NCBI RefSeq assembly: GCF_000512895.1 | Contig: NZ_CP007033.1 | Coordinates: forward strand, 402,001-466,000 | DNA: 64,000 nucleotides | Source of the DNA: Dehalobacter restrictus DSM 9455 | GTDB lineage: Bacteria; Bacillota; Desulfitobacteriia; Desulfitobacteriales; Syntrophobotulaceae | Direction: 5' to 3' | Shown here: piece by piece, positions 1,010 to 16,445 of the stretch | Position numbering within the stretch: the stretch's first letter is position 1 | How the letters are laid out: every line of letters starts with the position of its first letter | The notes under the pieces: model-generated | The model's input: only the letters and a program-made list of their open reading frames with translations | Database searches by the model: none | Told to the model about the DNA's origin: nothing | Translations under genes and position numbers: made by a program

Positions 1010-1199
1010 ATTAGTTTAATGCGAAAAGCCGTATAAGGGCAGCCTTTTCATTTATTGAGGAGGGAAGAACAATGGAAACTATCCGGCTGCGCTATCCCGA
1101 ATATTGCCGGAGTCTGGAATATCCCCTAATGCAGCTTTCCGTAATGGAACGGTAAATCCTTCAGAAAGATGGGGACTAGCGGGGAAGACGGTGAGGGTT

Positions 1200-2981: not shown

Positions 2982-3010
2982 CTGTCTCCTTATCTTGAAA
3001 GTAAAGGCGG

Positions 3011-3691
3011 GTGATTATCACGGATGGCCAATCAAGAAGTTCAGTCTGTTTTCTGGACAATATTTTGTCCGGCAGGATAAAAACAGAAATAGCTTTTCAG
3101 CCAATTTGGGACTTGCAGAAAATAAAGGTATTCGGTTTTGAAGCTTTAGCCAGATGGAAAAATCTTAAGCCGAATGAAGTCTTTTGGGAAGCTGCCCAAA
3201 ATAATTTAGTGCTGGAATTGGAAACTTTGATTTTGACGGAAATATGCCGGATCGGAAAAAGTACAAAAGGAAAGACGTTTATAAACGTTCATCCAAGCTT
3301 GCCCGATCCTTATTTTTGGGAATGTTTAAAAGGTAAAAATGTAGTTTTAGAAATAACGGAATCGGATACAATCTGCTTTACGGCTTTAAATGTCTTAAGA
3401 GATTTAGGTTTTATTTTGGCGTTAGATGATTTTGGTACCGGTTCGGCAACATTAGAATCTTTGTGTCTTGTCGAGCCTGAATATATTAAGCTTGATAAAA
3501 GCCTCATCCAATCAAAGAATATTTTAAGCCGGGATAGCCTGATAACGGCTTTTGTCGGACATGCCACAAGAATGAATACCAAGGTGATAGTTGAAGGCAT
3601 AGAAAACCGTGAGCAATTGCAGGCTGCAAGGATAAACGGTTCTCACTACGGACAAGGTTATTTCCTCGGAAAACCTGAAATTATTTGTTGA
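3011..3691 (+). CDS. EAL-domain protein, probable c-di-GMP phosphodiesterase
   Basis: This is a stand-alone EAL domain of 226 residues with no sensor or GGDEF partner. It should hydrolyse c-di-GMP to pGpG in the cytoplasm. The hallmark motifs are all present in order: FGFEALARW (the EAL signature), FINVHP, LEITES, ALDDFGTGSA (the DDFGTG metal and dimer loop), YIKLDKSLI, VIVEGIE and GQGYFLGKP. The key acidic residues, Lys and Gln are kept, so activity is likely. It starts at a GTG behind AAGGCGG and ends 30 bases before the CpaB gene, at the head of the Flp/Tad block, which suggests it tunes pilus production or function. Two c-di-GMP-I riboswitches lie further right in the same window. Confidence 0.88.
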   Translation: MIITDGQSRSSVCFLDNILSGRIKTEIAFQPIWDLQKIKVFGFEALARWKNLKPNEVFWEAAQNNLVLELETLILTEICRIGKSTKGKTFINVHPSLPDPYFWECLKGKNVVLEITESDTICFTALNVLRDLGFILALDDFGTGSATLESLCLVEPEYIKLDKSLIQSKNILSRDSLITAFVGHATRMNTKVIVEGIENREQLQAARINGSHYGQGYFLGKPEIIC

Positions 3692-3720
3692 AGGTGATAA
3701 TAAATTAAGGAGTGGTTTTT

Positions 3721-4482
3721 TTGAGAAGAGTATTATTTATTTTAGGTTTGGTTATCGCTTTAGGGAGCGGCATAGGCCTTTATTTTTATATGGATTATGC
3801 AAAAGGTTTGATTTCTGTGGTTTATGCCGCCACAAATATTACTGAAGATACCGTTATAAGCGCACAACAATTGAAAGTTAAAAATGTTCCAAGGGAAAGT
3901 GTGCCTTCAGGAGTTGCAGCAAGTATCAACCAGGTAGTAAATAAGTCTCTTAATTGGCCTTTAAAAGAAGGCGATCCGGTGCGGTTGGATAAGATAGAAC
4001 AAAACACGAAGGCGGAGGTTGAGAATTCGCGATTAATTGCCTTCAAAACAGATTACAACGGATCCATTGCCGGTCTCGCCAAATACGGACAAACCGTCGA
4101 TCTTGTTTTAACTCTTGACCCGAAACAAACAGGCAATTTATCGCTTTCAGGATATATTGTCACAGGTTTATTTATTGAAGCGACTGCTGATTCATCGGGA
4201 AAGATATTATCTTCTGCAGATATCCCGAATTTAAATAGATCAGCATCTGTTGTGAGTTTATCAGGCAGTGAGCAAACAACCGGTATCCCAACAGAAATAA
4301 TAGCAAAGGTTACGTCTAAACAGTTTTTAGTAATAAAACAAGCCGAAACAATGGGAACTATTTCGTTGGGGCAGCGCGATAAGAATGCTATGGATCTATA
4401 CAACATAAACAATGTTATCGAAAATTCACAGATGAATATTGGTAAAGATTTTATTGTTTCATTGCTTCAGCTTCAAAAGTAA
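3721..4482 (+). CDS. cpaB: CpaB/RcpC-like Flp pilus assembly protein (SAF domain)
   Basis: This is a membrane-anchored protein of 253 residues with an N-terminal transmembrane segment (residues 2-22), then a SAF-type domain (VVYAATNITEDTVISAQQL and the segment that follows) and a second beta-rich part. CpaB/RcpC proteins belong to Flp/Tad pilus assembly and sit outside the membrane near the pilus base. I prefer TTG 3721, because AAGGAG at 3707-3712 overlaps the alternative GTG at 3712 but is correctly spaced for the TTG. It is followed after 20 bases by the TadZ-like ATPase, in the usual Gram-positive Tad order. Confidence 0.82.
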   Translation: MRRVLFILGLVIALGSGIGLYFYMDYAKGLISVVYAATNITEDTVISAQQLKVKNVPRESVPSGVAASINQVVNKSLNWPLKEGDPVRLDKIEQNTKAEVENSRLIAFKTDYNGSIAGLAKYGQTVDLVLTLDPKQTGNLSLSGYIVTGLFIEATADSSGKILSSADIPNLNRSASVVSLSGSEQTTGIPTEIIAKVTSKQFLVIKQAETMGTISLGQRDKNAMDLYNINNVIENSQMNIGKDFIVSLLQLQK

Positions 4483-4502
4483 ATGTTATTGGAGGAAATC
4501 TT

Positions 4503-5306
4503 ATGGCTGATGAAAATAAAGCGGTTAATGAGCAGGTGAAGAAAATAGTCGCGTTGTGGAGTGTGTGCAGTGTTGGAAAGTCGACACTTGCTTGCAATCT
4601 TGCCCGAAAACTGGCAAAGGAAACAAACTTAAAAATTGGGTTGTTGGATTTTTCGTTAATAACGCCCTGTCTCCACTTTTTTTTAGATCTGGAAGATAAA
4701 GAAAGCTCGATTGAATATATCCTTAAGTCTTGGCAGGATAAATATTCTTATCACGAGTTACTTAAGGAAAACGCCCACATAAATAAGAACCTTCCAAATT
4801 TATTATGTTGGACAGGATTAATAAAAAAACCTGAATTGATAGATAAACTTGGGGATATTCAAGCTCGTACAATAATCTCTGAGTTGTCCGGTCTTGTAGA
4901 TATTCTCTTTATTGATGTACAAAGCGATACGCTGATTATTCCTACAGACGTATCGCTTAAAACAGCAACAGATGTTTTGGTTATTGTTGACCAGAACAGA
5001 AACACAATTGAAAACACCGCTAAATGGCTTAACAATTTGCATGCCCGAAATATGGAAATAAGCAAATTCAAACTGATCATTAACCAATATTCAAATAAGG
5101 CACTGTACACAAAAAATAAAATTGAGAGCAATCTTGCGTTGCCGTTGCTCGGAACAATTCCGGGTGTTTCCAAGGTAATTTATGATAACGCGACTGTTTC
5201 GTTGATGCCATTGTTAAAATGCGGTAAATTTGATAAATCAATTGAAAACATTCTGTTGCAGCTTCATTTATATAAAGCCGTAAAAAAACGTCGTATATTT
5301 TTTTGA
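4503..5306 (+). CDS. TadZ/CpaE-like MinD-family ATPase
   Basis: This P-loop protein of the ParA/MinD superfamily most likely has the TadZ/CpaE role of placing the Tad machine at its cellular site. The P-loop reads SVCSVGKST: the GKST part is intact, but the signature lysine and GG of the usual KGGVGKST are replaced. Such degeneration is known among TadZ proteins. The switch-like strand GLLDFSL and the strand LFIDVQSDT follow, and LVIVDQN and LIINQYS correspond to the later strands of the fold. The gene starts at an ATG behind GGAGGAAATCTT and is followed by cpaF. Nucleotide hydrolysis may be weak or absent. Confidence 0.8.
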   Translation: MADENKAVNEQVKKIVALWSVCSVGKSTLACNLARKLAKETNLKIGLLDFSLITPCLHFFLDLEDKESSIEYILKSWQDKYSYHELLKENAHINKNLPNLLCWTGLIKKPELIDKLGDIQARTIISELSGLVDILFIDVQSDTLIIPTDVSLKTATDVLVIVDQNRNTIENTAKWLNNLHARNMEISKFKLIINQYSNKALYTKNKIESNLALPLLGTIPGVSKVIYDNATVSLMPLLKCGKFDKSIENILLQLHLYKAVKKRRIFF

Positions 5307-5334
5307 TGCGGAATTCGAATTGGGGGATATTTAA

Positions 5335-6759
5335 ATGAGAATCAGTTCAGCTAAAGCTGTTGAACAAAAAGCATATGACACAGACAGCAGAAATCAACTA
5401 GATAAAACAACAAGTATTATCCAGTCAGTATTGACTGAAAATCACCAAAAATTGCTTAATGATGCTATTTACGGGGTAGGTGAATGTCAAAAACAAATCC
5501 GCAATGTAATAAAAGATATCATTCGGCATGAGAAACTGGATGTACCCGATATGAGTATCGATGAAATTGCCTGGGGCGTATATAAATTCATTATTGGGTA
5601 TGATGTTATCCATGACCTTCTTCTTGATACGGAGATAACAGAAATATGCGTAAATGGTCCGTATCAAATTACTTATAAAAAGAATGGAATCAGGTATTTC
5701 GCAAAGGATATTAAGTTTACAGATCTGTCCCACCTTGAAAAAATAACAGAACGCATATTGCTCACCTGCCACTCAGAAGCCAACGAGGGCAGCCCTATGG
5801 TGGATAATGCTTGGCTTCCGGATCGAAGCAGGGTTGTAATCAATAAAAGCTCAATCGTCCCCAGCCATGGAATTACCTTAAATATCCGGAGATTCAGGGA
5901 TAAAAACTTTTCCTTGGAAGAACTTGAAAAGATCGGGACGTTAAAAAAGGCTGAGAGGAGCAAATCACGCAACTCTCTTAATAAAGAGTATGAAGAGATC
6001 ATAAGTATTCTGAGCGAAGAACATTCTTACCGGCAGCTTGATTTTATTCGGGATGTGGTAAGAGCGGGAGCTACTATCATAGTCAGCGGCGGGACTCACA
6101 CCGGAAAAACAACTTTGATCCGTACCTTGGCCTCGATTTTCCAAGATCTTATTCCGGATGAAAACGGTCCTGGCGATCCCGAAAGCGGTTTGCGGATAAT
6201 AACTATCGAAAACGGACCGGAGCTGCAGCTGGTTAAATACTACCCCGGCCTTGAGGTTGTTGAAATGCTGGAACGCGACACAAAATACAATCCTATAGGG
6301 GTAGAGGATATCTACCCGCAGGTTATGAGAATGGACCCGGATGTGATTTTGGTTGGCGAGATCCGTTTTCCGGTCGAGGCAATGTATACTTTGCGGGCCA
6401 TGCGCTCCGGCCATGCAAATACAATGGCTTCAATTCATACCTATGATGCTGAATCATGCTGTCAGGAATTACGAACCAAGGTTCAAGCTATCTCCAATGT
6501 CAGTGACAAGGTAATTAACACTGAAATCGTCACGGCAGTAGATATTATTATCCAGTTAGGGATAGTGGATAGAAAAATTGAAATCACCCAAGTAGCTGAA
6601 TTGGATTTGGATCCGGAGTGCAATATTGTCATTAAAGATATTTTTAAAAGAGACAGCGACGGGAAAATGATCTTTAACCCCATAAGCAAAAAACTTGCTT
6701 ATCGTCTTATTGCCAAGGGCAGAAAAAATGCTGGTGATGTTAAGAGGTGGTTGGTATGA
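5335..6759 (+). CDS. cpaF: CpaF/TadA pilus-assembly ATPase
   Basis: This is the secretion ATPase of the VirB11/CpaF family that drives Flp pilin polymerisation at the inner face of the membrane. Visible elements are an N-terminal helical region, the Walker A segment SGGTHTGKTTLIR near residue 250, an Asp/Glu box around ITIENGPELQL, the Walker B-like segment DPDVILVGEIR and the His box GHANTMASIHTYDAES. The 474-residue length is normal for the family. An insertion of Lys/Arg/Ser-rich sequence (about residues 200-225) separates the N-domain from the motor. The stop overlaps the start of the next gene as ATGA, implying translational coupling to TadB. Confidence 0.93.
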   Translation: MRISSAKAVEQKAYDTDSRNQLDKTTSIIQSVLTENHQKLLNDAIYGVGECQKQIRNVIKDIIRHEKLDVPDMSIDEIAWGVYKFIIGYDVIHDLLLDTEITEICVNGPYQITYKKNGIRYFAKDIKFTDLSHLEKITERILLTCHSEANEGSPMVDNAWLPDRSRVVINKSSIVPSHGITLNIRRFRDKNFSLEELEKIGTLKKAERSKSRNSLNKEYEEIISILSEEHSYRQLDFIRDVVRAGATIIVSGGTHTGKTTLIRTLASIFQDLIPDENGPGDPESGLRIITIENGPELQLVKYYPGLEVVEMLERDTKYNPIGVEDIYPQVMRMDPDVILVGEIRFPVEAMYTLRAMRSGHANTMASIHTYDAESCCQELRTKVQAISNVSDKVINTEIVTAVDIIIQLGIVDRKIEITQVAELDLDPECNIVIKDIFKRDSDGKMIFNPISKKLAYRLIAKGRKNAGDVKRWLV

Positions 6760-7712
6760 CGCTTGTTCTTTGTTATGGAATAAGCATCGGGCTTTTATTG
6801 TCTGTAATTGTATGGTTTCTCGGGAAAAAAGAAAAGAAGCAAATATCAGGTTTCATAAATAAAAGAATAAACTATTTGCATGACAAAGTGAAAAATAACA
6901 ATAGGATAAGTAATTTTGCAAGATATTACAATCAAAGAATCTATATTACAAATTTGAAGTTGAGCTTAAAAGCTCTTCTTTTTATTAGTATAGGGTTTTG
7001 TTTTATTGCTTTTTTCCTGTCAATAGTGATCCTTTCTGAAAAAATTCCGAATCCAATCTATCAGAATCCGGGGGCTGTAATCGTAAGCCATAATATTTTC
7101 GGGATTGTTATTTTTATGATTGTCGGCTTCATGATCCCGTGGGTATTGTTAAATTTAATCTATCACAGTATGCGAAGAATGCTGAATAAACAAGCCTTGA
7201 ACACTTTCAATCTTATATTAAACAATTATATTGTGCGTAATAATCTTGAAGCTGCAACCTGGGATTCAATTGCTGCCATGCCTTCTCAAATGCGCTCTTT
7301 GTTTAGCCGAATCCAGTCCCGGGTCAATAATGGGGAAGAATTCGACACGGTTATATATAAAATATCGATACTTCTAAAACTGCAGTCTTTCAGGGATTTT
7401 TACAACGTTATCGTTTCTTCGAGAATGGCCGGGGGCAACACGGAAGATCTTTTATACAGGCTTTCAGACAAAATCAGATCAAGAAAAAACAGGGCCCAAT
7501 CAATTAAAGAGGATCTTAATCCGCTAATCTCTAAAGCTGTGGCTTTTACGCTGGTAATGATTCTTACGTATTTCGGCGTAAGTCTTGTTTGGCCGGATTC
7601 AATCGCCCTGGTAAAACAATCCTCAATAGGACATCTTTATATCAATGCCATAATAATCTCCATTTTAATTGAGGCTGCTCTGTTACTGAAATTCTTATCA
7701 ATGGAGGATTAA
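6756..7712 (+). CDS. tadB: TadB-like type II/Flp secretion membrane protein
   Basis: This is an integral membrane platform protein of the GspF/TadB family. Hydrophobic segments lie at the N-terminus, at about residues 75-95 and 115-140, and as a pair at the C-terminus. Between them lies the cytoplasmic T2SSF-like helical domain with the pattern FRDFYNVIVSSRMAGGNTEDLLYRL. ATG 6756 overlaps the cpaF stop (ATGA) and has AAGAGGTGG upstream. The frame extends only three more codons to GTG 6747. TadB and TadC normally form a heteromeric base that couples CpaF to the growing pilus. Confidence 0.85.
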   Translation: MTLVLCYGISIGLLLSVIVWFLGKKEKKQISGFINKRINYLHDKVKNNNRISNFARYYNQRIYITNLKLSLKALLFISIGFCFIAFFLSIVILSEKIPNPIYQNPGAVIVSHNIFGIVIFMIVGFMIPWVLLNLIYHSMRRMLNKQALNTFNLILNNYIVRNNLEAATWDSIAAMPSQMRSLFSRIQSRVNNGEEFDTVIYKISILLKLQSFRDFYNVIVSSRMAGGNTEDLLYRLSDKIRSRKNRAQSIKEDLNPLISKAVAFTLVMILTYFGVSLVWPDSIALVKQSSIGHLYINAIIISILIEAALLLKFLSMED

Positions 7713-7718
7713 GTAAAT

Positions 7719-8624
7719 ATGAATATACTATTGATCTGTTCTATAGGAATTTCAATGGGTTTATTGCTACTTTCTGCGGCGTTTTTTATTAAGACAAACC
7801 TCAAGGAGTTTAAGAGGATAAATTCTCTGCGCACTACTGTGCTTTCATATAGACAAGCCCAAGATACTGCTTTGAAAAAACTTCGCAAAAAGACGGCAAA
7901 TTATATCACGAAATTATTAAGCAAAAAGCCGGGGCATAATCGTTCGGATAACATGCTGGAAATACTCAAACAGCCTGGGAAACCAATGCCGATAGGATAT
8001 GCGGAATATAAGACTTTTAAAAATGTATCCCCGTTCATATTTGCGCTCTTATTTGGCTTTGCAGGCTTTTCCACGAAAGATTTGCTGATGGCAATAGGGT
8101 TGATCTGTGCAGGCTTTTTTGTGGGGATAATAGCGCCTACGGCCATTCTTGCGTATTTTTATAACCAATACAAAAATGATCTTATCAATGAGCTGTCGGA
8201 AATTATGACCTATATTGTTGATTTAAGAAAAGCGGGGCAAACCATACCTGATTCTATTCGCGGGGCTTTATTTGCAACAAATAAATTACGGCCTCACTTA
8301 GAAAAACTCTTGCAAGAGATGTCAATAACAGGGCCAAAACCGGCACTCGCAAAATTGAGTAAAGAAACTGATATTGATGAATTGAAAAACTTAGCGGATA
8401 TTTTAATGCAATCTATCACAATTGATAGTTCTAATATGGTTGCATATTTAGCAAGCCGGTCACGGGATATTGATTATATTGAAGGATTAAAAGAAGTAAG
8501 GCGGTATAAAAACAAAAAAATGCTTGTCGAAGCATTGACCGCAATTCCGTTTATTATGATCCCGATAATAATTCTTGTCCCGCTGCTATACCAGGCTAAT
8601 CAAAGCCTTGGTCAAATAATGTAG
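7719..8624 (+). CDS. tadC: TadC-like type II/Flp secretion membrane protein
   Basis: This is the second platform protein of the TadB/TadC pair, 301 residues. It has an N-terminal membrane segment, two central hydrophobic stretches (about residues 105-145), a T2SSF-type helical domain containing IVDLRKAGQTIPDSIRGAL, and a C-terminal membrane helix (LTAIPFIMIPIIILVPLLY). It follows TadB by six bases, with GGAGG well placed before the ATG. The first pilin gene follows 14 bases later behind AGGGAGGTGG. Confidence 0.85.
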   Translation: MNILLICSIGISMGLLLLSAAFFIKTNLKEFKRINSLRTTVLSYRQAQDTALKKLRKKTANYITKLLSKKPGHNRSDNMLEILKQPGKPMPIGYAEYKTFKNVSPFIFALLFGFAGFSTKDLLMAIGLICAGFFVGIIAPTAILAYFYNQYKNDLINELSEIMTYIVDLRKAGQTIPDSIRGALFATNKLRPHLEKLLQEMSITGPKPALAKLSKETDIDELKNLADILMQSITIDSSNMVAYLASRSRDIDYIEGLKEVRRYKNKKMLVEALTAIPFIMIPIIILVPLLYQANQSLGQIM

Positions 8625-8638
8625 GGAGGTGGCAATAT

Positions 8639-8818
8639 GTGAAAAAAATTGTCTGCTATCTGACAACAGTATTGCGTGATGAAAGGGGGGATCTTGTTCA
8701 AAATATCGTCTTGCTGTTTGGCGGCATTCTAGCAACGATAGGCATTGCAGTGATTCTATATAATACAATAACATCCAAAATAGCAAATGACTCGGCCGGA
8801 ATGAGCAAACTTAATTAA
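8639..8818 (+). CDS. Small Flp-type pilin subunit 1
   Basis: This is a 59-residue protein starting at GTG behind AGGGAGGTGG. It has a short basic leader, the segment DERGDLVQN, one hydrophobic helix (IVLLFGGILATIGIAVILY) and a short polar tail. Size, layout and position directly after TadC fit a Flp pilin. The leader would be cut by the prepilin peptidase encoded downstream, probably after the Gly of RG. The residue five positions after that Gly is Asn or Gln rather than the usual Glu. The next gene is a clear paralogue. Confidence 0.8.
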   Translation: MKKIVCYLTTVLRDERGDLVQNIVLLFGGILATIGIAVILYNTITSKIANDSAGMSKLN

Positions 8819-8837
8819 GAAGGGGGGTTATTTTTTT

Positions 8838-9014
8838 ATGGGAAAAACTCTAAAAAACCTTTATCAGGATGAAGGCGGTGATTTAGTCCAAAACATCATC
8901 TGGATCTTCGGTGGTGTTCTGGCCACGGTGGCAGCCGTATCGGTGTTGTTTGTTACAATCCGGGGCAAATTGACGGATATGAATACCAGTATAACAAATA
9001 TCACCACTCCATAA
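8838..9014 (+). CDS. Small Flp-type pilin subunit 2
   Basis: This 58-residue paralogue of the preceding pilin shares the pattern DE-x-G-DLVQNI-x-FGG-ILAT with it (here DEGGDLVQNIIWIFGGVLAT). It has one membrane helix and a Thr/Asn-rich tail. The ATG lies behind AAGGGGGG. Two non-identical pilins in tandem may be a major and a minor subunit. A perfect 12-bp inverted repeat follows 36 bases after the stop and separates the pilins from the pseudopilin genes. Confidence 0.8.
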   Translation: MGKTLKNLYQDEGGDLVQNIIWIFGGVLATVAAVSVLFVTIRGKLTDMNTSITNITTP

Positions 9015-9050
9015 TTAAAATATTCCTCACCGTGAGGAGGAAGGGAGAGG

Positions 9051-9084
9051 GCGGATAGTATATGTTCAGACGTATACTATCCGC
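9051..9084 (+). promoter_or_regulatory. Perfect 12-bp inverted repeat after the pilin pair
   Basis: GCGGATAGTATA and its exact complement are separated by a 10-base loop. No T-run follows, so this is not a simple intrinsic terminator. Placed just after the two pilin genes and just before the TadE-like gene, it may be an RNA processing or stability hairpin that raises pilin mRNA over downstream genes, or a protein-binding palindrome. Confidence 0.6.
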
Positions 9085-9092
9085 TTAAAATT

Positions 9093-9527
9093 ATGCTTAA
9101 ATTACTAAAAAAACAAATGAAAAATCCTGATAATGAACGCGGATCTACCTTGATTGAATTCTTGATTGTCTTTGCCTTATGGATGGCGATATTCTTCACA
9201 TTTATATCGATGTTTTTCCTTAATAACTTACAGGGTTCAATGGTTAATGCCGTGAATCTCGGGTTGGAAAGGGCTGCTATTGTTGGAGGAACTACGACAG
9301 AGGTCCGAAATCTAATTAAAGATCAACTGAAACACACCGGCGTCGATACTGGTTTATTTTCGATTACAGGGTCGGGCAGTGATACAAGCCGCGTTGCTTA
9401 TGGACAATATATAACAATTTCCATAACAGGACCCCGAAAATTTACTGATTGGTCAAGCGGGAACCCGGTTTCCAAATCGGAGACGGTTACAGTAACCAAA
9501 ACAATCATGAGTCAATATTTGCCTTAA
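9093..9527 (+). CDS. TadE-like pseudopilin
   Basis: This 144-residue protein has a type IV prepilin signature, ERGSTLIEF. The putative cleavage follows Gly, with Glu at position +5 of the mature protein, and a hydrophobic helix follows (FLIVFALWMAIFFTFISMFF). The rest is a polar, beta-rich globular part. This is the layout of the TadE/TadF minor pilins that accompany Flp pili. It starts at an ATG within an AT-rich context, with only a weak ribosome binding site, directly after the inverted repeat. Confidence 0.82.
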   Translation: MLKLLKKQMKNPDNERGSTLIEFLIVFALWMAIFFTFISMFFLNNLQGSMVNAVNLGLERAAIVGGTTTEVRNLIKDQLKHTGVDTGLFSITGSGSDTSRVAYGQYITISITGPRKFTDWSSGNPVSKSETVTVTKTIMSQYLP

Positions 9528-9539
9528 ATGAGGGTGTTT

Positions 9540-10064
9540 ATGAAGAAGCTATATAAAATAATAAAAGACGACCGGGGTTCAACTTTAATTGAACTGCTGA
9601 TTTTTTTGGGTATTTTTCTAGCCCTTATTGGCTGGGCGACGGATTACTACCACGCAATAAACATAAAACGAGGAATAACAGACAGTATAAAATTTGCCGC
9701 TTTAGCGGCCAGCCAGCAAACCGACCAGGCCAGATTAAACCAAGGTATTTTGGCTATAGACTCAACGCAAGCGGATGTTGTTTTTTTAGAGATGTTAAAG
9801 AAAAATTTATCTTTGGACAATAACCTCAATCCGCTACCGGGCTCGCCGGTGATTTATGTTAATAAAGCAACGCTTTATTATCAAACCTATAATTCTGATG
9901 TTTTGCCGGCAGTAAGCCCGATAGACAGTCACGCTATCACTGAGCCGTCCTATGTGGTTTATATTGAAGTCAGAGTAAGTCGCGGCTTAACACAAATCGT
10001 AAATTCAACTCCATATTGGACTATTAAAGTAGCCAAAGACGCTGCTTTAAAAATCTCACCATAA
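9540..10064 (+). CDS. TadE/TadF-like pseudopilin
   Basis: This 174-residue minor pilin has the prepilin motif DRGSTLIELL, again with Glu at +5, a hydrophobic helix (IFLGIFLALIGWA) and a mixed globular tail. I chose ATG 9540, spaced from GAGGGTG, over the ATG at 9528 that overlaps the previous stop. It is adjacent to another TadE-like gene and the prepilin peptidase. Confidence 0.82.
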   Translation: MKKLYKIIKDDRGSTLIELLIFLGIFLALIGWATDYYHAINIKRGITDSIKFAALAASQQTDQARLNQGILAIDSTQADVVFLEMLKKNLSLDNNLNPLPGSPVIYVNKATLYYQTYNSDVLPAVSPIDSHAITEPSYVVYIEVRVSRGLTQIVNSTPYWTIKVAKDAALKISP

Positions 10065-10078
10065 TTTGAAATGTAAGG

Positions 10079-10609
10079 ATGATGCAAGAAATGGTCAATG
10101 ATTTAGCATTTTTGGTACCTTTAATGATGCTGTCAATTTGTGTTTTGACGGATTGGCGGAAGCGGAAAATATATAATTGGGTGACAATACCCGGTTTTGT
10201 TATTGGGATAATTTATATCATATACGCCAAAACATATTCAGTAAGTTATGGCTTTTCTTTTTTATTCCTTTTCTTAATTCTCTTATTCGTCTATTCCCAC
10301 GGGGCGATGAGGGGAGGTGATGTTAAATTGCTGATGGCTCTCAGCCTGTTTTTAACACCCGGGGCCTTCTTCTTTAATTCAGCTCTCTTCATGTTTTCAG
10401 CTTTCTTTTATTTCTTTTTCCAAACTGTACGGGTTAAAGGCTTATCCCAAACTATTAATGATGTAAAAACAGATTCCCTTGTTTTGATAGCTATCGGAGA
10501 AAATAATAATTCCTTTGCAAATGGTGTAGAAAGCAGGTTTTTCCCCGGCGGCGGAGCCGCTTTGATCTCTTTATGCTATATAGTTACATCATTCTTGTTT
10601 TCGTATTAA
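10079..10609 (+). CDS. Prepilin peptidase (A24 aspartic protease)
   Basis: This is a small polytopic membrane protease of 176 residues that would remove leader peptides from the Flp pilins and TadE-like proteins. Two catalytic Asp motifs are visible: LTDWRKRKIYNWV near residue 22 and MRGGDVKLLMAL near residue 80, the latter being the GxGD-type site. About five hydrophobic segments surround them. It lacks the N-terminal methyltransferase domain of classical PilD, as usual for TadV/CpaA-type peptidases. It lies directly after its likely substrates. Confidence 0.9.
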   Translation: MMQEMVNDLAFLVPLMMLSICVLTDWRKRKIYNWVTIPGFVIGIIYIIYAKTYSVSYGFSFLFLFLILLFVYSHGAMRGGDVKLLMALSLFLTPGAFFFNSALFMFSAFFYFFFQTVRVKGLSQTINDVKTDSLVLIAIGENNNSFANGVESRFFPGGGAALISLCYIVTSFLFSY

Positions 10610-10633
10610 AATTATTTCTAAGGGGATGTGGAT

Positions 10634-10900
10634 ATGGTGAAATGGGAATTGGATGTTTCGGATAACTTAAATCAAAGAACGGAAGGATTTAGTGCTTCGA
10701 TAGGGATGAGCAGGGAAAGGTTTATCACGCTTGCCATATTGTCTCAGCTGGAGGAAATGGAGATGAATATGGACGAACGTCGCAAAACTGCTGACCCGTC
10801 GGAGAAAAAAACACTTTCCCAAACCTATATTAAAATAGGTGATGAGGATGTTCCGGTAGGTCCGAAAGGAGGATACGACCATGTTAAAGTTAAGAGTTAA
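10634..10900 (+). CDS. Small ribbon-helix-helix-like protein
   Basis: This 88-residue protein has an N-terminal part (VKWELDVSDNLNQRTEGF, then IGMSRERFITLAI) that matches the strand-helix-turn-helix pattern of RHH DNA-binding or adaptor proteins. The tail is polar and ends in GPKGGYDHVKVKS. ATG 10634 is favoured because AAGGGG lies eight bases upstream. The gene overlaps the following lipoprotein gene by 20 bases, so the two are probably co-translated. It could be an operon regulator or a subunit of the pilus system. The role is inferred only from the fold pattern. Confidence 0.6.
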   Translation: MVKWELDVSDNLNQRTEGFSASIGMSRERFITLAILSQLEEMEMNMDERRKTADPSEKKTLSQTYIKIGDEDVPVGPKGGYDHVKVKS

Positions 10901-11660
10901 AACATTTTCTATTCTGCTTCTTGTTTTGTCCTTGATTCTTTTTGGGTGCAGTTCCAAAAAGGCCGAGCCGGTACAAAATGTTCCGGTCCAGCAGGATACC
11001 CAGACTCAAAAAAATATTCAAAGCCCGGAAAAGGAGCTTGAGCCGATTAAAGAGGCTGAACCTGAGCAAGTTCCACAGCCGGAAGTCAAAAGCGAAACAA
11101 AAGCTGAGTCCAGTGCTGAGCCCAAAGTCCAGCCAAAGCCTGAGCCGGATCAGCCAAGCAAGCCGGAGCCGGAGCAGAAACCTCCCGCCAACTCCGGGTT
11201 ATCTTTGTATAGCTTGGGGCATCAGGTTGATGTCCAAAACAATGTTACCAAAACAGACAAAGAGAAAGTCGTTTATGAAGCGGCCGCCAGGTGGCTGGTA
11301 GAGTTCAAATCTACCGATTATAAAAAGCTTGAGGCAATGTCGCAAATGCCGGGAAGCAGTTACACGACGGCAAATTTCCAAAATTCGTTGGACAACTTTT
11401 ATCCGAATTTCAAATCGGAAAGCATCAAAAATAAGGATACCAGACAAGTGAAGTCTTTATGCCTTGACGATATAAGTTTTAGCCAAATCCCCCAGTTAAA
11501 TAATCAAGAAGGGGCTTTCCTGAAGTTGACCATCGTAATTAATGCAGCGCAAAATGGGGGCAACTATTGGGTAAGCAAATATGAAGAAAGAATTATTTTG
11601 CTTCAGGCAAACGGGGTTTGGAAGGTTGATTCTGAAGAAAACACCCAGCTGAAGATGTAG
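10881..11660 (+). CDS. Lipoprotein with Pro/Glu/Lys-rich spacer
   Basis: This is an exported lipoprotein. Its signal peptide ends in the lipobox LFGCSSK (Cys near residue 23), so it should be anchored to the outer face of the membrane. A low-complexity spacer rich in Pro, Glu and Lys (about residues 45-100) probably spans the wall, and a C-terminal globular domain of about 150 residues (from LYSLGHQVDVQNN) follows. I do not recognise that domain. Its position between the Tad genes and the radical SAM genes suggests a surface partner of one of these systems. Confidence 0.75.
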   Translation: MLKLRVKTFSILLLVLSLILFGCSSKKAEPVQNVPVQQDTQTQKNIQSPEKELEPIKEAEPEQVPQPEVKSETKAESSAEPKVQPKPEPDQPSKPEPEQKPPANSGLSLYSLGHQVDVQNNVTKTDKEKVVYEAAARWLVEFKSTDYKKLEAMSQMPGSSYTTANFQNSLDNFYPNFKSESIKNKDTRQVKSLCLDDISFSQIPQLNNQEGAFLKLTIVINAAQNGGNYWVSKYEERIILLQANGVWKVDSEENTQLKM

Positions 11661-11672
11661 GGGGGTATACCT

Positions 11673-13133
11673 ATGAATTTAATAGCCAAAGATGAATTGT
11701 ATCAGTTCCGTAAATTCAACAACAAATACGAAAGGGAGTTGCGCAGCTCAGTTTACCAGGAAATTATGCCCGCCATGAGTTCCGGGGAGATTCTGGACGT
11801 TATTGCCGGCAATAAAAGCATGATGTTCTCTATGTCTCTCAAGCAAATAAAAAGGCATAACGATTACTTTGAGGGGGATATCGACTTCAAAAAGATGGCT
11901 GCGGCGGAAAATATTACGTACCCCGATAAAACTACTTTGATCGTAAAAACGACGCATGCCTGCAACTTGCATTGCCCGTATTGTTACGACGTGATGTTTC
12001 GTAAGGATCTTAATGCGGAAGGCAACAAGATCACGCTGGAAGTGGTCACGCAGATTTTAAAAGTGTTCAAAGACGTGAATGTCGGCACCTGGATATGGCA
12101 CGGCGGGGAGCCTTTGCTGATCGGGAAAGAATTCTATGAAGAGGCAAATGCCCTGATCAAGCAGCAATTCAAGAAAGCAAATATTTGCATGCAATCCAAT
12201 TTGACGCTGATTGACGATGAGAACGCCGCTTTGTTAAGGAAGTGGAACATCCGGCCGGGGTTTAGTTTCGATGGCTTAACAAACCATTTGACCCGGAAAA
12301 ATACCAATAGATTAATGCGGTCCATTGCCACAGCGGATAAAAACGAAGTCTTGGGCGGCGCAATCATGATCATTACGAAAGATAATATCCACCAAATGAT
12401 TGACGAATATGAATACTTTAAGCGCTTAGGCCTGGGCTGCAAGATGAATCTCATCTTTGCGGCCCATAAAAATATGAATTCCTATACCCTGGACGGGAAA
12501 ATGACTGCCGAGAAGATTTGCCAATTCTTTGACTATTGGATTTTAGATACTTATAGGCCTGCTGATTCTGATCTGTGCGAGAGATATTTAATGGCCACTT
12601 TGGATGCTGGCGGTTCGTGCGCTTTTACGGACTGCGCAGGGAAGGATTACTGGTTTTCAACTCAGCCCGACGGTACGATTTATCATTGCGGCCGGGACTG
12701 GCCGGAGAGCGCTTCCGTGTCCTTCGGGAATATTTTTGAGATGGAATCGGTTCAGGATATCTTAAATCATCCCAATCATAAAAGATGGCACGAGGGAACC
12801 CGGCGGATGCTGCAGCATTGCAGCGATTGTGATTATTTCTACAGCTGCCATAGCGGCTGCTACAATGACAACATCCAGTATGACTTGTCAATGAATAAAC
12901 CGGAGCCTGATAATTGCTACACGCACCAGCACGTGATCAGCCATATCATAAGCCTTATTAATGAAATTGATTTTGACGATATGCCGAAATATAACCCGAG
13001 ATTCTTAAACTTTTTATTCCGGCATCAATTCAGGAGCGCCAAGATGATGAAAAATATTTTAGAAGAATCTATTAAACGGATCGAAACTCCTGTTAATGCG
13101 GAAAATAAGCTAAAGGAGTTTCTCGTTATTTAA
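11673..13133 (+). CDS. Radical SAM/SPASM peptide-modifying enzyme
   Basis: This 486-residue protein has a radical SAM core with the cluster motif CNLHCPYC (Cys 97, 101 and 104), then GGEPLL and the usual later strands. A Cys-rich C-terminal region (CAFTDC, CGRDWP, CSDCDYFYSCHSGC) is typical of a SPASM domain with auxiliary Fe-S clusters. About 90 residues precede the core and could bind a substrate leader. SPASM enzymes of this size modify ribosomal peptides or proteins (thioethers, C-C crosslinks, epimers) or formylglycine sites. The next genes encode a U32-like protein, a Tyr/Trp-X-Asn repeat protein and a second radical SAM enzyme, so the repeat protein is the natural substrate candidate. 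Confidence 0.9.
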   Translation: MNLIAKDELYQFRKFNNKYERELRSSVYQEIMPAMSSGEILDVIAGNKSMMFSMSLKQIKRHNDYFEGDIDFKKMAAAENITYPDKTTLIVKTTHACNLHCPYCYDVMFRKDLNAEGNKITLEVVTQILKVFKDVNVGTWIWHGGEPLLIGKEFYEEANALIKQQFKKANICMQSNLTLIDDENAALLRKWNIRPGFSFDGLTNHLTRKNTNRLMRSIATADKNEVLGGAIMIITKDNIHQMIDEYEYFKRLGLGCKMNLIFAAHKNMNSYTLDGKMTAEKICQFFDYWILDTYRPADSDLCERYLMATLDAGGSCAFTDCAGKDYWFSTQPDGTIYHCGRDWPESASVSFGNIFEMESVQDILNHPNHKRWHEGTRRMLQHCSDCDYFYSCHSGCYNDNIQYDLSMNKPEPDNCYTHQHVISHIISLINEIDFDDMPKYNPRFLNFLFRHQFRSAKMMKNILEESIKRIETPVNAENKLKEFLVI

Positions 13134-13148
13134 GAGAGGTTGATATTT

Positions 13149-14342
13149 ATGATCAATATTTTTAAGAAAAAACAAAAATTCCAACCCCCAAACCAGCCAA
13201 AGGAACTGTACTTCTCAGTTCCTTTATTGTTTGACTATGGGTATATTCAGGAATTGACAAGGCTTAACAGCCAGGATAAGACGAAGTATAAGATCCGCTC
13301 TGTTTATAACAGTTTGCCTGTTACTTCCTATGCAAAATCAGGGCATGAACATGGCCGGTCAGTTAATTTGCAGGAAGATAGCGGTAGAATCCGGACCCTG
13401 GAAGATTTGAGGCCCTATATAAAAGAACTTTCAGAAAACGGGTTGGCGTTCATTTATCTGATGAATAATATCTCAACCATTTCCCTGTATGACTTTGAAT
13501 CGAATATTCCCCAACTGAAGCAGTTTGTCGAGCATCTGGCGGATATTGGGGTGCGAAGCATTACGGTTGGAAGCCAGCTTCTCGCCGACTTCCTGAAAGA
13601 TGAATTCAGCGGGTTGGCAGTAAACGCCTCAACGATGATGGATATTCGGTCAATCAACCAAGCGAAGTATGTCAGCGAGAATCTAGGGATCTCCAATATC
13701 ATTCCTGCATCCGATCTTAATAAGGATTTTGCTTTTATTGAATCGTTTAAAAAGCTGCTGCCTGGTGTTGGCTTGGAATTGATGGCTGATGAGGGCTGCA
13801 TATTTTGTTGTCCGACCAAGAATATTCACTATGCCTTGTTTGGCAAGCAGGAAAACATTCATAAATGTAGCCCGTTATTCCGGGAATTCCCTAAATTCAT
13901 TTGCGATCAGATTACCTTTAAAAGTCCGGCAATTCAAATGGTGCTGAACCGGATTATTTACCCTTGGGAAATCCCTTGTTATGAGAAAATGGGGGTCAAC
14001 AGCATCAAGCTTGTTGGCAGGGATCACCCCAAGCCGGAATTGGTCAATAAGATTAAGGCCTATATGCTTGGCGTTACCGATCCGGAATATGCATTGAATG
14101 AATTCTATAACACTTACAATTCGCGTTTTATGAACAACGTTTTCCATCCGTACGGGACGCTGAAGATGAAGGAAATATTTGAGTTTTTGCCGAAGCTCGA
14201 TTATTTCATGGAAAATAAGCCGCAATGCGCCGCCAAGTGCGGGGCTATATGCAAGTATTGTTTTAGTAAAGCGGAACAGATTGAGAATTATGTTGCGGGG
14301 AAAGGGCAGGCAGATCCATTATCCTGTGCAGTAGGTGAATGA
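13149..14342 (+). CDS. U32-family protein, likely Fe-S dependent
   Basis: This 397-residue protein resembles the peptidase U32 family: LYFSVPLLFDYGYIQEL at the start, then VRSITVGSQLLADFL, VNASTMMDI and ELMADEGCIFCCPTKNIHY, with the Cys-rich signature in its expected place. Further Cys lie at HKCSPLF, IPCYEKMG and the C-terminus (CAAKCGAICKYC). Some U32 members (UbiU/UbiV, TrhP, RlhA) are not proteases but Fe-S proteins acting in O2-independent hydroxylation. Others accompany radical SAM maturases. ATG 13149 has GAGAGG nine bases upstream. It sits between the radical SAM gene and the repeat protein, whose start overlaps its end region. Confidence 0.75.
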   Translation: MINIFKKKQKFQPPNQPKELYFSVPLLFDYGYIQELTRLNSQDKTKYKIRSVYNSLPVTSYAKSGHEHGRSVNLQEDSGRIRTLEDLRPYIKELSENGLAFIYLMNNISTISLYDFESNIPQLKQFVEHLADIGVRSITVGSQLLADFLKDEFSGLAVNASTMMDIRSINQAKYVSENLGISNIIPASDLNKDFAFIESFKKLLPGVGLELMADEGCIFCCPTKNIHYALFGKQENIHKCSPLFREFPKFICDQITFKSPAIQMVLNRIIYPWEIPCYEKMGVNSIKLVGRDHPKPELVNKIKAYMLGVTDPEYALNEFYNTYNSRFMNNVFHPYGTLKMKEIFEFLPKLDYFMENKPQCAAKCGAICKYCFSKAEQIENYVAGKGQADPLSCAVGE

Positions 14343-14343
14343 C

Positions 14344-15120
14344 ATGGCAAGAACCTTTTCTAGATTGAAAAAATTGCTGTTTGCCTTTCTTTCATTAAGC
14401 ATCCTTCATACTTCAATAACCCAAGACCTGGTTCTTGACAACAATCATCCGGATCGGCCCAAAGCCAAGGAGGGCAAATACTCCAAGGCTTTGGGCCTTA
14501 AGTTTTCCTTGCAGCCCGAAAAGGCGTTCGCTTGGGTGGAATGGTCCTGGCCCAACTCTGGATGGAGCAATTATCAAAATTATGGCGCATATAGTGATGT
14601 CTACAACAATACTTATGGCAATTACGTAAATTGGAACGCAAATTACAATAATGCTGGTGTTTGGGAAAACCATTCGCAATGGGAAAATCATAGTGAAACA
14701 TGGAGCCAATATTCGAATTGGACTGCTTATTCGAATTACAGTAACTACAGCAACTACAGTAATTATGGTGATTGGGGCGCATATAGCAATTATTCCAATT
14801 ATAGCGATTGGAATAACTGGACACCGCCCCCGTCGGTTGTCGCAAGTGTACAGGCCGTTGCATTTCCAGACACCACAATTCAGATTACAGCAACAACAAC
14901 CGGAACCACCACTTCCGTCACTGTGACGAATACTTTTAATTCAACAGTAATTGCCTTTACAAATACCGGCGGAAATACATGGGTGGGATATTTTAATATC
15001 CCTGCCAGGACAACTGTTCAGCCGATAACTTTTTATGTTACCGCCAGTAATAGTTACGGATCGAGCAATGCTGTTGCCGTCACAAACGTAAAACACTTTC
15101 AAAATGTAATTACCCGGTAA
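14344..15120 (+). CDS. Exported aromatic-X-Asn repeat protein, candidate modified substrate
   Basis: This 258-residue protein has four parts: a basic, hydrophobic N-terminus (KKLLFAFLSLSIL) like a signal peptide; a polar stretch ending in EKAFA, a possible second cleavage site; a repeat region (residues 64-159) in which nearly every Tyr or Trp begins a triplet ending in Asn or Asp; and a Thr/Val-rich beta-sandwich-like domain (160-258). In the repeat region I count 28 Tyr/Trp-led triplets, of which 17 end in Asn and 3 in Asp, including four consecutive YSN. Aromatic-X-Asn is the motif crosslinked by cyclophane-forming radical SAM enzymes (triceptides). The gene lies between two radical SAM genes. 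ATG 14344 has AGGTG upstream. No named family is recognised. Confidence 0.8.
   Translation: MARTFSRLKKLLFAFLSLSILHTSITQDLVLDNNHPDRPKAKEGKYSKALGLKFSLQPEKAFAWVEWSWPNSGWSNYQNYGAYSDVYNNTYGNYVNWNANYNNAGVWENHSQWENHSETWSQYSNWTAYSNYSNYSNYSNYGDWGAYSNYSNYSDWNNWTPPPSVVASVQAVAFPDTTIQITATTTGTTTSVTVTNTFNSTVIAFTNTGGNTWVGYFNIPARTTVQPITFYVTASNSYGSSNAVAVTNVKHFQNVITR
14533..14820 (+). repeat. Triplet-coding repeat region (Tyr/Trp-X-Asn units)
   Basis: These 96 codons give a degenerate nine-base periodicity, such as TAY-AGY/TCN-AAY units. Synonymous codons alternate between copies (tattcgaat, tacagtaac, tacagcaac, tattccaat), which shows selection on the protein sequence rather than recent slippage. The densest part is at 14716-14811. 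Confidence 0.85.
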
Positions 15121-15184
15121 ATTAAAGCATCATTGCTATTGTTCGGAATGTTCTAAAGATATTTTGTTTATAAGGAGTGTTACC

Positions 15185-16165
15185 ATGAATATTATGTTAA
15201 ATAATTACTGCAACTTAAATTGTTCATATTGCTTTGCAAATTGTAATCTGAAGAACAAGGTTGATATTTCTGATGATAATTATGGATATATAATCAATTT
15301 CTTTAAGAAGTCGGCGCATGTTGATTTAAGATTGCTCGGGGGGGAGCCGACACTGCATCCGAATTTTGAAAAATGGGTGAATCAAGGAACAGACGATCCA
15401 TTTTTCCGGAGAATTCAGATTTTCACCAATGCCATTGCTTTGGAAAATGCATTGAGCCGCTCGATAGTGGATAATAAGGTTTCGTTTTTGATTAATTTGA
15501 ATGGGCCCGATGTGATCGGTGAAAATCTATATAATAAGACAATAGACAATGTAGAAAACCTGGTATTTGAATATCGCAGAAGAAATATCGAACCTCAAGT
15601 TACGCTCGGCATTAATATCTTCGAGCCGAATTTTAAATATCAATATATTATTGAGCAAAGCAAAAGACTAAAATTAAAGACCATACGATATAGTATTACG
15701 GTTCCCTCGGATAATAAGCAGAATGGCAGTCTTGAACATTATGAAAGTTTTGTTCCTGGATTAGTTGACTTCTTAGATGATTGCCATAAAAATGGGATTT
15801 CTCCTCATGTTGATTGCAATAATCCACCCAAGTGTATTTTTACTAATGAGCAGCTTGTAAATTTCATTTACTCAGGTTTTGATCTTATCCATAAGGGAAT
15901 ATGTTCACCGGTTATGGATATACGGCCCGACTTGAGCGTCGCCCGATGTTTCGTTTTTGAAGATTATCTAAGGGTAAATATTAAAGATTTTAATACCGTT
16001 CGAGATGTCAACGATTTTTTTCTGCGTGAGATTGACAGTAAAAGATATAGCAGTCTAGCGTTTAAGCAATGCGCTGGATGCAGGTTCTGGGACGAAAAGA
16101 AATGTATCGGCGGTTGTTTAGGTTATAATATCGAGGGAAAATCATCTGCTTGCTGTGCAGGATAG
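15185..16165 (+). CDS. Second radical SAM/SPASM-like enzyme
   Basis: This 326-residue radical SAM protein carries its CxxxCxxC motif almost at the N-terminus (CNLNCSYC, Cys 9, 13 and 16), so no N-terminal recognition domain is present. RLLGGEPTLHP gives the SAM-binding GGE motif. The C-terminus has a compact Cys cluster (CAGCRFWDEKKCIGGC, then CC four residues from the end), like a shortened SPASM domain. ATG 15185 has AAGGAG eight bases upstream. It follows the repeat protein after 64 bases and ends the co-directional block. It may add a different modification or work after the first enzyme. Confidence 0.87.
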   Translation: MNIMLNNYCNLNCSYCFANCNLKNKVDISDDNYGYIINFFKKSAHVDLRLLGGEPTLHPNFEKWVNQGTDDPFFRRIQIFTNAIALENALSRSIVDNKVSFLINLNGPDVIGENLYNKTIDNVENLVFEYRRRNIEPQVTLGINIFEPNFKYQYIIEQSKRLKLKTIRYSITVPSDNKQNGSLEHYESFVPGLVDFLDDCHKNGISPHVDCNNPPKCIFTNEQLVNFIYSGFDLIHKGICSPVMDIRPDLSVARCFVFEDYLRVNIKDFNTVRDVNDFFLREIDSKRYSSLAFKQCAGCRFWDEKKCIGGCLGYNIEGKSSACCAG

Positions 16166-16445
16166 GTTTCCTCACTGCCGCATAAATATTAACAATTATA
16201 ATTATAAAATAAGGAAGTTGATTTATCTTTATCCTAAGCTCCAACAAAATGCAACTTAGAGCAAGTTACTCTGGATAGTGGAAATAATTTGTGTTGATGG
16301 TAAAATAAAGAAAAATGAATAAGGGTTTGAATCAACGCAGCGTAATTGTGAAAACAATGTCACCAATGCACTAATAGTCGCCTTGTCCATTTATGTTAAT
16401 TTCAGGTTTCGCTGTTGTTTTATAGCAATGCCAGGAGGCCATAGC

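Follow-up and report, generated by a model that had tools for sequence, protein, structure and literature searches.

In the window, by which we mean the whole 64,000-nt stretch of Dehalobacter restrictus PER-K23 DNA that was analysed, four genes follow one another on one strand. The first (11673..13133, +) encodes rSAM-1, a radical SAM/SPASM enzyme of 486 aa that carries an additional N-terminal domain of ~85 aa, and the second (13149..14342, +) encodes a 397-aa U32-family protein, a candidate O2-independent oxidase. The third (14344..15120, +) encodes a Cys-free exported protein of 258 aa containing an aromatic-X-Asn/Asp repeat region (WVEW...NNW; 14533..14820, +), the putative modified core. 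The fourth (15185..16165, +) encodes rSAM-2, a radical SAM enzyme of 326 aa that lacks an N-terminal extension. The intergenic gaps are 15, 1, and 64 nt, bearing out the gene order, shared orientation, and close spacing claimed in the preliminary description. By eye, each likely start follows a Shine-Dalgarno-like purine run; these are 11673 for rSAM-1, 13149 for U32, ATG 14344 over GTG 14335 for the repeat protein, and ATG 15185 over TTG 15164 for rSAM-2.

A Tad/Flp-type pilus operon (1104..10609, +) lies immediately upstream, and its T2SSE, T2SSF, and A24 matches support the pilus setting that had also been claimed. It contains NlpC/P60, EAL, SAF/CpaB-like, and ParA-like genes along with those for a T2SSE/CpaF ATPase, T2SSF/TadB, and an A24 prepilin peptidase (10079-10609). 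A 301-aa TadC-like protein and a TadE/F-like protein were assigned by position, and a 58-aa protein (8838-9014) was judged by eye to be Flp-like. As in Tad/Flp pilus loci, the assembly gene set upstream thus includes a CpaF ATPase, TadB/C, a Flp-like pilin, and an A24 prepilin peptidase in one operon. To our knowledge, radical SAM, U32, and aromatic-repeat genes are no standard part of Tad loci. Genes for a 90-aa protein and a 259-aa lipoprotein-like protein (10628..11660, +) lie between the prepilin peptidase gene and rSAM-1.

Eight cassettes were found in six genomes of one family, two of them in D. restrictus. All eight keep the four-gene order and share the Tad-like locus. The 90-aa and lipoprotein-like genes are also present at all 8 loci, conserved with the cassette to an equal degree. 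The repeat protein and the TadE/F-like gene co-occur in the identical 6 of 25 family genomes, with 8 copies each. Because the six genomes are related, the eight cassettes do not represent independent events. Incidentally, the main text of a D. restrictus functional-genomics paper mentions neither the locus tags nor radical SAM or pilus terms.

The aromatic repeat

The repeat protein consists of a hydrophobic N-terminal helix (residues 1-27), a conserved spacer (28-63), the repeat (64 to ~160), and a C-terminal beta-sandwich (~164-258). Searches of Pfam and NCBIfam at E 0.1 and of PHROGs at 0.01 assign it to no family. Assignment of the C-terminal domain as a CBM, pilin, or adhesin beta-sandwich was rejected, as the structural matches (Z ≤7.3) are in the noise band.

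Within the 96-residue repeat stretch, 28 Tyr/Trp residues are present and 20 of them have Asn/Asp at +2, exactly reproducing the triplet counts first reported. The spacing between successive Tyr/Trp is exactly 3 in 19 of 27 cases; when His is included as an aromatic, there are 30 aromatics with a spacing of 3 in 22 cases. In 20,000 composition-preserving shuffles of the stretch, Ar-X-N/D occurs 7.2 times on average (maximum 15) and spacing 3 occurs 4.0 times (maximum 12). With 20 of 27 triplets ending in Asn/Asp, the repeat has the form of a triceptide-type substrate, aromatic-X-X3 with X3 such as Asn/Asp. Recent DNA slippage was dropped as its origin, because the repeat uses mixed codons for Tyr, Asn, and Ser.

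Relative to the window sequence, the change rates are 3.7% at the aromatic position, 12.6% at position 3, 20.6% at position 2, and 23% at other positions. This position-specific constraint fits Ar-X-N/D as the putative unit. In all eight copies, Cys is absent from the repeat protein, and Lys and Arg are absent from the repeat region, features that the preliminary description had left unremarked. Therefore, thioether chemistry of the sacti- and ranthipeptide kind (PapB-type), which takes Cys donors in the substrate, is excluded on this protein, and Trp-Lys/Arg chemistries have no partner in the repeat. An AlphaFold model gives the repeat very low confidence (block pLDDT ~22-31), and crosslinks cannot be modeled, so the model is uninformative on rings.

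Recurrence outside the family

Related enzymes also occur beside other aromatic repeats. In a jumbo phage represented by three metagenome contigs in IMG/VR, rSAM-1-like, U32, and rSAM-2 genes overlap by 4 and 1 nt, followed by a gene whose product contains 24 perfect Trp-X-X-X units. All 24 Trp of the phage protein are in one phase of 4 (shuffle maximum 15), and the phage rSAM-2 homologue is 44% identical to that of D. restrictus (6.7e-88). In another bacterial family, a tailocin-like (contractile-tail) locus contains rSAM-2, three rSAM-1-like genes, and a gene for a Tyr/Cys/His-repeat protein. This protein contains 18 [YWFH]-X-[ND] triplets, against a mean of 7.2 and a maximum of 16 in shuffles, and an Ig/FnIII-like region, read by eye, follows the repeat. 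A 67-aa ORF in this locus matches the rSAM-1 N-terminal domain, and no U32 gene is found nearby.

Among the observations that would count against it, the preliminary description had named homologous enzyme pairs consistently found without aromatic repeats. Within the databases covered, a search for this did not refute the idea. The repeats are Y/W-X-N in Dehalobacter, W-X-X-X in the phage, and Y/C-X-X-H in the tailocin-like locus. This difference in period and residues means that the enzymes do not all carry out one chemistry or that the repeats have been assigned as substrates too strictly, and with a phage period of 4 the linkage cannot be identical throughout.

As a control, Ar-X-Asn (Tyr-X-Asn) repeats were found in several phage proteins whose 103-112 kb records contain no radical SAM gene, so the motif alone proves nothing. 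Such proteins would suit a reading in which the enzymes have a different substrate, such as the Flp pilin, the 90-aa protein, or some other part of the Tad machinery, while the repeat serves simply as an aromatic, hydrophilic linker of low complexity or as an adhesive segment. The genes for the 90-aa and lipoprotein-like proteins, as conserved with the cassette as the repeat is, would suit it as well. However, the homologous enzymes adjoin unrelated aromatic-repeat proteins in the phage and the tailocin-like locus, where the neighbors are tail genes and not pilus genes. The repeat gene also sits between enzyme genes, and its aromatic positions are the most conserved. We consider the linker reading very unlikely and the repeat, with high probability, the substrate of the enzymes.

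Viral pattern scans were made for W-X3 and Y-X-N repeats; among the fetched loci, the enzyme profiles matched only the known jumbo phage in the matches listed. INPHARED yielded no match to the phage rSAM-2 or rSAM-1, and the viral contigs yielded none to the tailocin rSAM-2. Two plasmid matches to rSAM-2 were rejected; the one in Chlorohelix belongs to a multi-radical-SAM cluster whose target is of another type, and the one in Thiodictyon is accompanied by a YcaO-like gene.

The radical SAM and U32 enzymes

rSAM-1 has a radical SAM domain (PF04055, 1.8e-14) and a SPASM domain (PF13186, 1.1e-6), the combination expected of a triceptide enzyme. Its CNLHCPYC motif is invariant in all eight copies, and so is a complete SPASM Cys set (C321-x12-G-x4-C339; C383-x2-C386-x5-C392-x3-C396; C415). 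rSAM-2 (PF04055, 2.8e-10) has CNLNCSYC at residue 9 and 13 Cys invariant in the eight copies; its C-terminus is SPASM-like without an invariant last Cys. Relatives of rSAM-2 are rare, occurring in 2 of 267 genera in a phylum sample.

Neither enzyme reaches the cut-off of a named cyclophane maturase (XyeB, GrrM, FxsB, YhhB, AmcB, or DynA). The best NCBIfam score of rSAM-1 is with DynA (128.8 bits against a cut-off of 450), and further scores are 74 of 310 for GrrM and 79.7 of 425 for AmcB. The HxsB cut-off of 370 (His-Xaa-Ser system) is likewise missed by rSAM-1 (54 bits) and rSAM-2 (21.2 bits).

The trio could instead modify the repeat by a non-cyclophane route such as epimerisation (D-Asn/D-Ser), Tyr/Trp ethers, or other C-H chemistry. 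rSAM-2 weakly resembles YydG, PapB, and SkfB, and rSAM-1 comes close to DynA, an enzyme that forms more than one bond type (PMC11002830), and also to anaerobic sulfatase maturases. With two radical SAM enzymes for a single substrate, two or more tasks are implied, and the phage period of 4 misfits an i to i+2 bond. On the other hand, Cys for thioethers is missing, and conservation falls from the aromatic residue to position 3 to position 2, as a ring-to-position-3 bond predicts. We give this route a minor, though real, chance.

The U32 protein (PF01136, 1.7e-11) is predicted to fold as a TIM barrel (pTM 0.78), and its best solved structural match is U32 Mk0906 (5d88; Z 17.8, 3.7 Å over 215 residues), the next row being 14.4. 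Family and fold thus agree with the U32 oxidases UbiU/UbiV, TrhP, and RlhA, as do conserved Cys and an anaerobic host. Those enzymes hydroxylate without O2 (PMC11574389). Known U32 oxidases act on quinones or RNA and have CX6CX15CX3C as an Fe-S ligand motif (PMC11574389), whereas the Dehalobacter protein, in a peptide-modifying setting, lacks this motif and instead has C217-x3-C221, a third Cys (C252), and a C-terminal Cys cluster. Among 12 U32 homologues, C217, C221, and C252 are invariant, and C360/C364/C368/C371 are present in most.

The family name U32 and a conserved Ala-X-Ala-like KAFA ahead of the core would suit a protease that removes the N-terminal spacer (~28-63, ending KAFA-W), with modification left to the radical SAM enzymes. 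Such a role would affect only the U32 step and is compatible with cyclophane formation. The invariant Cys and the C-terminal Cys cluster of most homologues are, however, as in Fe-S enzymes and unlike proteases. A homologue from a RiPP-like cluster weakly matches the TrhP and UbiU hydroxylases, and homologues are located in RiPP-like, sugar/acyl, and phage DNA-modification-like clusters. Proteolysis is therefore unlikely. Between the two, O2-independent oxidase is the likelier identity of the U32 protein, and the chance that it performs an oxidation in this cassette is roughly even. Hydroxylation by U32 oxidases depends on prephenate, which the cell can make, given a chorismate mutase domain encoded in its genome.

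Searching the viral contigs with the window U32 protein gave no relative, scanning the genome collection with a U32 alignment gave close relatives only, and searching PDB sequences with a U32 profile gave no match. U32 matches in INPHARED, mostly T4-like phages among the matches listed, were rejected as the same system, because the two loci read have nucleotide-metabolism and replication neighbors and no annotated repeat protein or radical SAM enzyme.

Proposed modification and related systems

We propose that the cassette modifies an exported fibre or adhesin protein co-produced with the Tad-type pilus. rSAM-1 and rSAM-2 would act on the repeat in the cytosol before export. The most likely bond would be a ring-to-Cβ C-C bond from residue i (Tyr/Trp, possibly His) to i+2 (Asn/Asp, perhaps Ala/Gln/Glu), giving up to ~20-28 consecutive three-residue cyclophanes with a loss of 2 Da per ring. 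The U32 protein would most likely contribute O2-independent oxidation, e.g. hydroxylation, rather than proteolysis. Export would follow, with surface display together with the beta-sandwich domain, and the crosslinks would turn a flexible Tyr/Asn/Ser chain into a stiff, protease-resistant one. Taken by itself, cyclophane chemistry on the repeat stands at even chances or slightly above, and a structural role of the product is fairly probable. That the cassette modifies the repeat mostly as three-residue cyclophanes and yields a rigid surface element is, as a whole, marginally probable. The modified-surface-protein interpretation put forward earlier is supported in part. The module exists as described, is conserved, and lies in a Tad-like pilus locus in all eight cases, and its enzymes recur beside aromatic repeats, while ring formation is a prediction and neither radical SAM enzyme reaches the cut-off of a named cyclophane maturase. 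That interpretation had assigned no role to the U32 protein.

The system is a variant of an already known kind, the triceptide-like, repeat-target radical SAM systems. Known triceptide products are mostly short peptides with few rings. As in the triceptide systems (XncB, OscB/GrrM, MscB, YxdB, HaaB, YhhB), a SPASM radical SAM enzyme lies beside a leader-bearing aromatic-X-Asn/Asp substrate. Unlike there, the 258-aa substrate here combines ~20-28 units with a beta-sandwich domain, two dissimilar radical SAM enzymes are joined by U32, and the enzymes score far under the curated cut-offs. XncB, OscB, and YxdB link Trp/Phe/Tyr with Asn/Asp at i+2, and the linkages known among triceptides include Tyr-Asp, Trp-Asn, and Trp-Asp (PMC11002830).

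Aro-X-X-Asn radical SAM precursors have been predicted to give larger cyclophanes (Cluster 27, Kostenko et al., PMC9062424). Their repeated aromatic-led motif lies beside one radical SAM enzyme, and its spacing of 4 matches the phage protein, unlike which the Cluster 27 precursor peptide has two motifs only and U32 is unmentioned (PMC9062424). In TvgA/TvgB, a repeated TVGG target becomes poly-cyclopropylglycine (PMC9062424).

Repetitive substrates modified many times are common to TvgA/TvgB, GrrA/GrrM, HxsA/HxsB/HxsC, and the present cassette. GrrA and HxsA are further long repeat proteins modified by radical SAM enzymes, two of which, HxsB and HxsC, belong to the Hxs system. In contrast, the motif differs here, and the consulted descriptions of the Tvg, Grr, and Hxs systems include neither a U32 protein nor a pilus or phage-tail setting. 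The novelty first claimed therefore stands in part; long radical SAM-modified repeat targets have precedents (TvgA, PMC9062424), while the rSAM-U32-rSAM trio appears undescribed so far. Together, the trio and the repeat point to an undescribed means of hardening surface fibres.

A broader and quite unlikely version would be a three-enzyme anaerobic armouring system common to bacteria (Tad-type pili and phage-tail-like particles) and a jumbo phage. The two radical SAM enzymes would build a continuous poly-cyclophane chain, whose aromatic rings U32 would hydroxylate anaerobically; the resulting adhesive fibre would be stiff and either DOPA-like or rich in hydroxy-Trp. If so, it would be the first case known to us of a U32 oxidase that modifies peptides and of a structural protein made of poly-cyclophane.

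If a structural protein does contain dozens of such rings, it would embody a new material principle, in which a disordered aromatic chain is stiffened by C-C bonds before export. If U32 is a peptide oxidase, it would let anaerobes obtain hydroxylated aromatic residues, whose formation normally requires O2. With the enzyme trio also present in a phage, the association of the enzymes with aromatic repeats can be tested on independent substrates. The host, an organohalide-respiring bacterium, has been isolated and its genome is complete, so the native protein is open to examination.

A conserved cassette behind the Tad genes

Four genes on the forward strand, encoding a radical SAM enzyme (rSAM-1, 11673-13133), a U32-family protein (13149-14342), an exported 258-aa repeat protein (14344-15120) and a second radical SAM enzyme (rSAM-2, 15185-16165), form a real, conserved module, apparently undescribed so far. 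In the window it is preceded by a Tad/Flp-like pilus operon (SAF/CpaB-like, ParA-like, T2SSE ATPase, T2SSF, Flp-like 58-aa protein and A24 prepilin peptidase). Eight cassettes were found across six genomes, with two apiece in D. restrictus (G000) and G001; named genomes with a related locus are Ca. Dichloromethanomonas elyunquensis and a Peptococcaceae MAG. The gene order rSAM-1, U32, repeat, rSAM-2 is kept in 8/8, as are the identical preceding Tad genes. The same 6 of 25 family genomes carry the repeat protein and a TadE/F-like gene, in 8 copies each. Because the six genomes are mutually related, this conservation does not amount to six independent events.

Genes for a 90-aa protein and a lipoprotein-like protein separate the prepilin peptidase from rSAM-1. 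In three loci (L029, L031, L033), additional genes intervene between the peptidase gene and that for the 90-aa protein, yet the 90-aa, lipoprotein-like and cassette genes remain together. An ECF sigma factor and a DUF4367 protein lie directly 3′ of the cassette (16443-17649), a pair not found in this position at the other examined loci. A different part of the D. restrictus genome has an orphan piece of the rSAM-2 C-terminus with 71% identity (L048:9609-9791; G000:C1:237614-237784), likely a relic of a lost third cassette.

The aromatic repeat and its proposed crosslinks

The repeat protein runs from a hydrophobic helix through a conserved spacer ending in KAFA and the repeat to a predicted beta-sandwich, and has no match in Pfam or NCBIfam (to E 0.1) or PHROGs (to E 0.01). 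The preliminary description had counted 28 Tyr/Trp per 96 residues and 20 aromatic-X-Asn/Asp triplets, numbers that we reproduced exactly. Aromatics are spaced by exactly 3 in 19 cases, and 20,000 shuffles of the repeat gave at most 15 triplets and 12 such spacings. Two conserved His, in HSQ and HSE of the window sequence, stand where the triplet register would otherwise be interrupted. Divergence from the window sequence is 3.7% at the aromatic position, rising to 12.6% for position 3 and 20.6% for position 2, against 23% for the other residues of the repeat, and repeat length varies among cassettes by whole triplets in some cases.

rSAM-1 has a CX3CX2C motif and a complete SPASM pattern, and rSAM-2 a SPASM-like tail whose final Cys is not invariant; this difference in build suggests two tasks. 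Their closest named families include DynA, AmcB, GrrM/OscB, YhhB and PapB, with all scores far below curated cut-offs, so that no membership is claimed. As the protein has no Cys, a thioether is excluded, and as its repeat has no Lys/Arg, so is a Trp-Lys/Arg bond. The precedented radical SAM crosslink that remains for aromatic-X-Asn/Asp is the three-residue cyclophane (PMC11002830), and we therefore consider it most likely that many cyclophanes would form in the repeat; the leading chemical alternatives are epimerised residues or ether bonds. With cyclophanes as the preferred product, the radical SAM enzymes would install multiple rings, the U32 protein would act alongside them as an oxidase, and the product would be displayed at the cell surface, adjoining the pilus. 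Such a system is of the same kind as radical SAM repeat-target/triceptide systems, to which the cassette adds a U32 protein as partner and a location among pilus or phage-tail genes.

The predicted U32 model is a TIM barrel, best matching the U32 protein Mk0906 (Z 17.8). Three Cys (C217, C221 and C252) are invariant among 12 homologues, and a C-terminal Cys cluster is common to most of these; the Fe-S motif of known U32 oxidases, CX6CX15CX3C (PMC11574389), is not matched by the window protein. Homologues occur in a sugar/acyl-type biosynthetic cluster, a RiPP-like cluster and T4-like phages. From the invariant Cys and these settings, we infer that an oxidase fits better than a protease. Read by eye, the first cluster (L025:6265-12512) has AMP-ligase-like, epimerase-like, glycosyltransferase-like and carrier-protein-like genes. 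The RiPP-like cluster (L027:7983-11622) has a 90-aa peptide with the C-terminus GMGAFHTDNHSNW, a YhhB/sulfatase-maturase-like and an HxsC-like radical SAM enzyme. In Yersinia phage phiR1-RT (L308:605-7812), the homologue, annotated as a peptidase, lies amid arabinose-5-phosphate isomerase, thymidylate synthase and thymidylate kinase genes. Genes beside the T4-like phage homologues read as DNA hypermodification, in which these homologues are perhaps oxidases.

Related enzymes in phage-like loci

When phylum samples of 266 and 267 genera were searched with the rSAM-2 profile, one additional genome, from another family, was found beyond the window's family (35% identity). Its contractile-tail locus (L047:2300-19773; G382:C1:2260098-2279900), a tailocin or prophage with sheath, tube, Baseplate_J and Gp48 genes, has four radical SAM genes, three of them rSAM-1-like, and a subtilase. 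A 67-aa ORF adjoining one of these enzymes matches the N-terminal domain found in rSAM-1 of the window, with 18 of 54 residues identical, a result equalled by 0/2,000 shuffles. A 385-aa protein there has Tyr/Cys/His repeats, with 18 [YWFH]-X-[ND] triplets where shuffles reached at most 16, followed by a region judged by eye to be Ig/FnIII-like; it is possibly a radical SAM-modified tail fibre.

In IMG/VR, the same profile matched three metagenome contigs (146, 195 and 70 kb) from one jumbo-phage lineage. Its rSAM-1-like, U32 and rSAM-2 genes overlap end to end and are followed by a 233-aa protein with 24 Trp-X-X-X tetrads, for which the remaining precedent is a larger, predicted Aro-X-X-Asn crosslink (PMC9062424). 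Phage rSAM-2 is 44% identical to that of the window. The phage U32 protein matches the window U32 profile only weakly (8.6e-8) and its rSAM-1 matches at 7e-25, so synteny and rSAM-2 do more to define the trio than any close likeness of all three. Because the adjacent phage genes are not pilus genes, this trio is the strongest evidence tying the enzymes to aromatic repeats. The region (L049:2829-11974) also holds, before the trio, a third, PapB-like radical SAM gene (5229-6332, 4.7e-39) and two proteins of no known kind (6329-7084 and 7047-7853); a phage protein encoded just upstream matches a tail-fibre family.

The repeat period differs among the Tad-locus cassette, the jumbo phage and the tailocin-like locus. 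Phage proteins with aromatic-X-Asn repeats lie in 103-112 kb records holding no radical SAM gene, so a repeat of this sort need not be accompanied by a radical SAM gene in the same record. Tyr-X-Asn runs (e.g. NYSNYSNYDNYSNYGNYNNYSN) occur in phage proteins of L214, L184 and L239, where no radical SAM gene was detected, the L184 record being only 11.9 kb.

Other observations

On a Ca. Chlorohelix plasmid (L059:5237-12286), three radical SAM genes surround two proteins that resemble each other at the C-terminus (PAGAVC[TV]CNCVAGT ... HYW[YH]PN), a candidate radical SAM target family. In the window, a 222-aa protein (18457-19125) with a hydrophobic N-terminus and an HEIGHTQNLGH motif shows weak matrixin-like (M10) similarity. 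The window also encodes two large proteins that combine RHS repeats with laminin-G-like domains (36473-44212 and 45064-49068), the former with a polymorphic-toxin-like C-terminal AHH nuclease domain.
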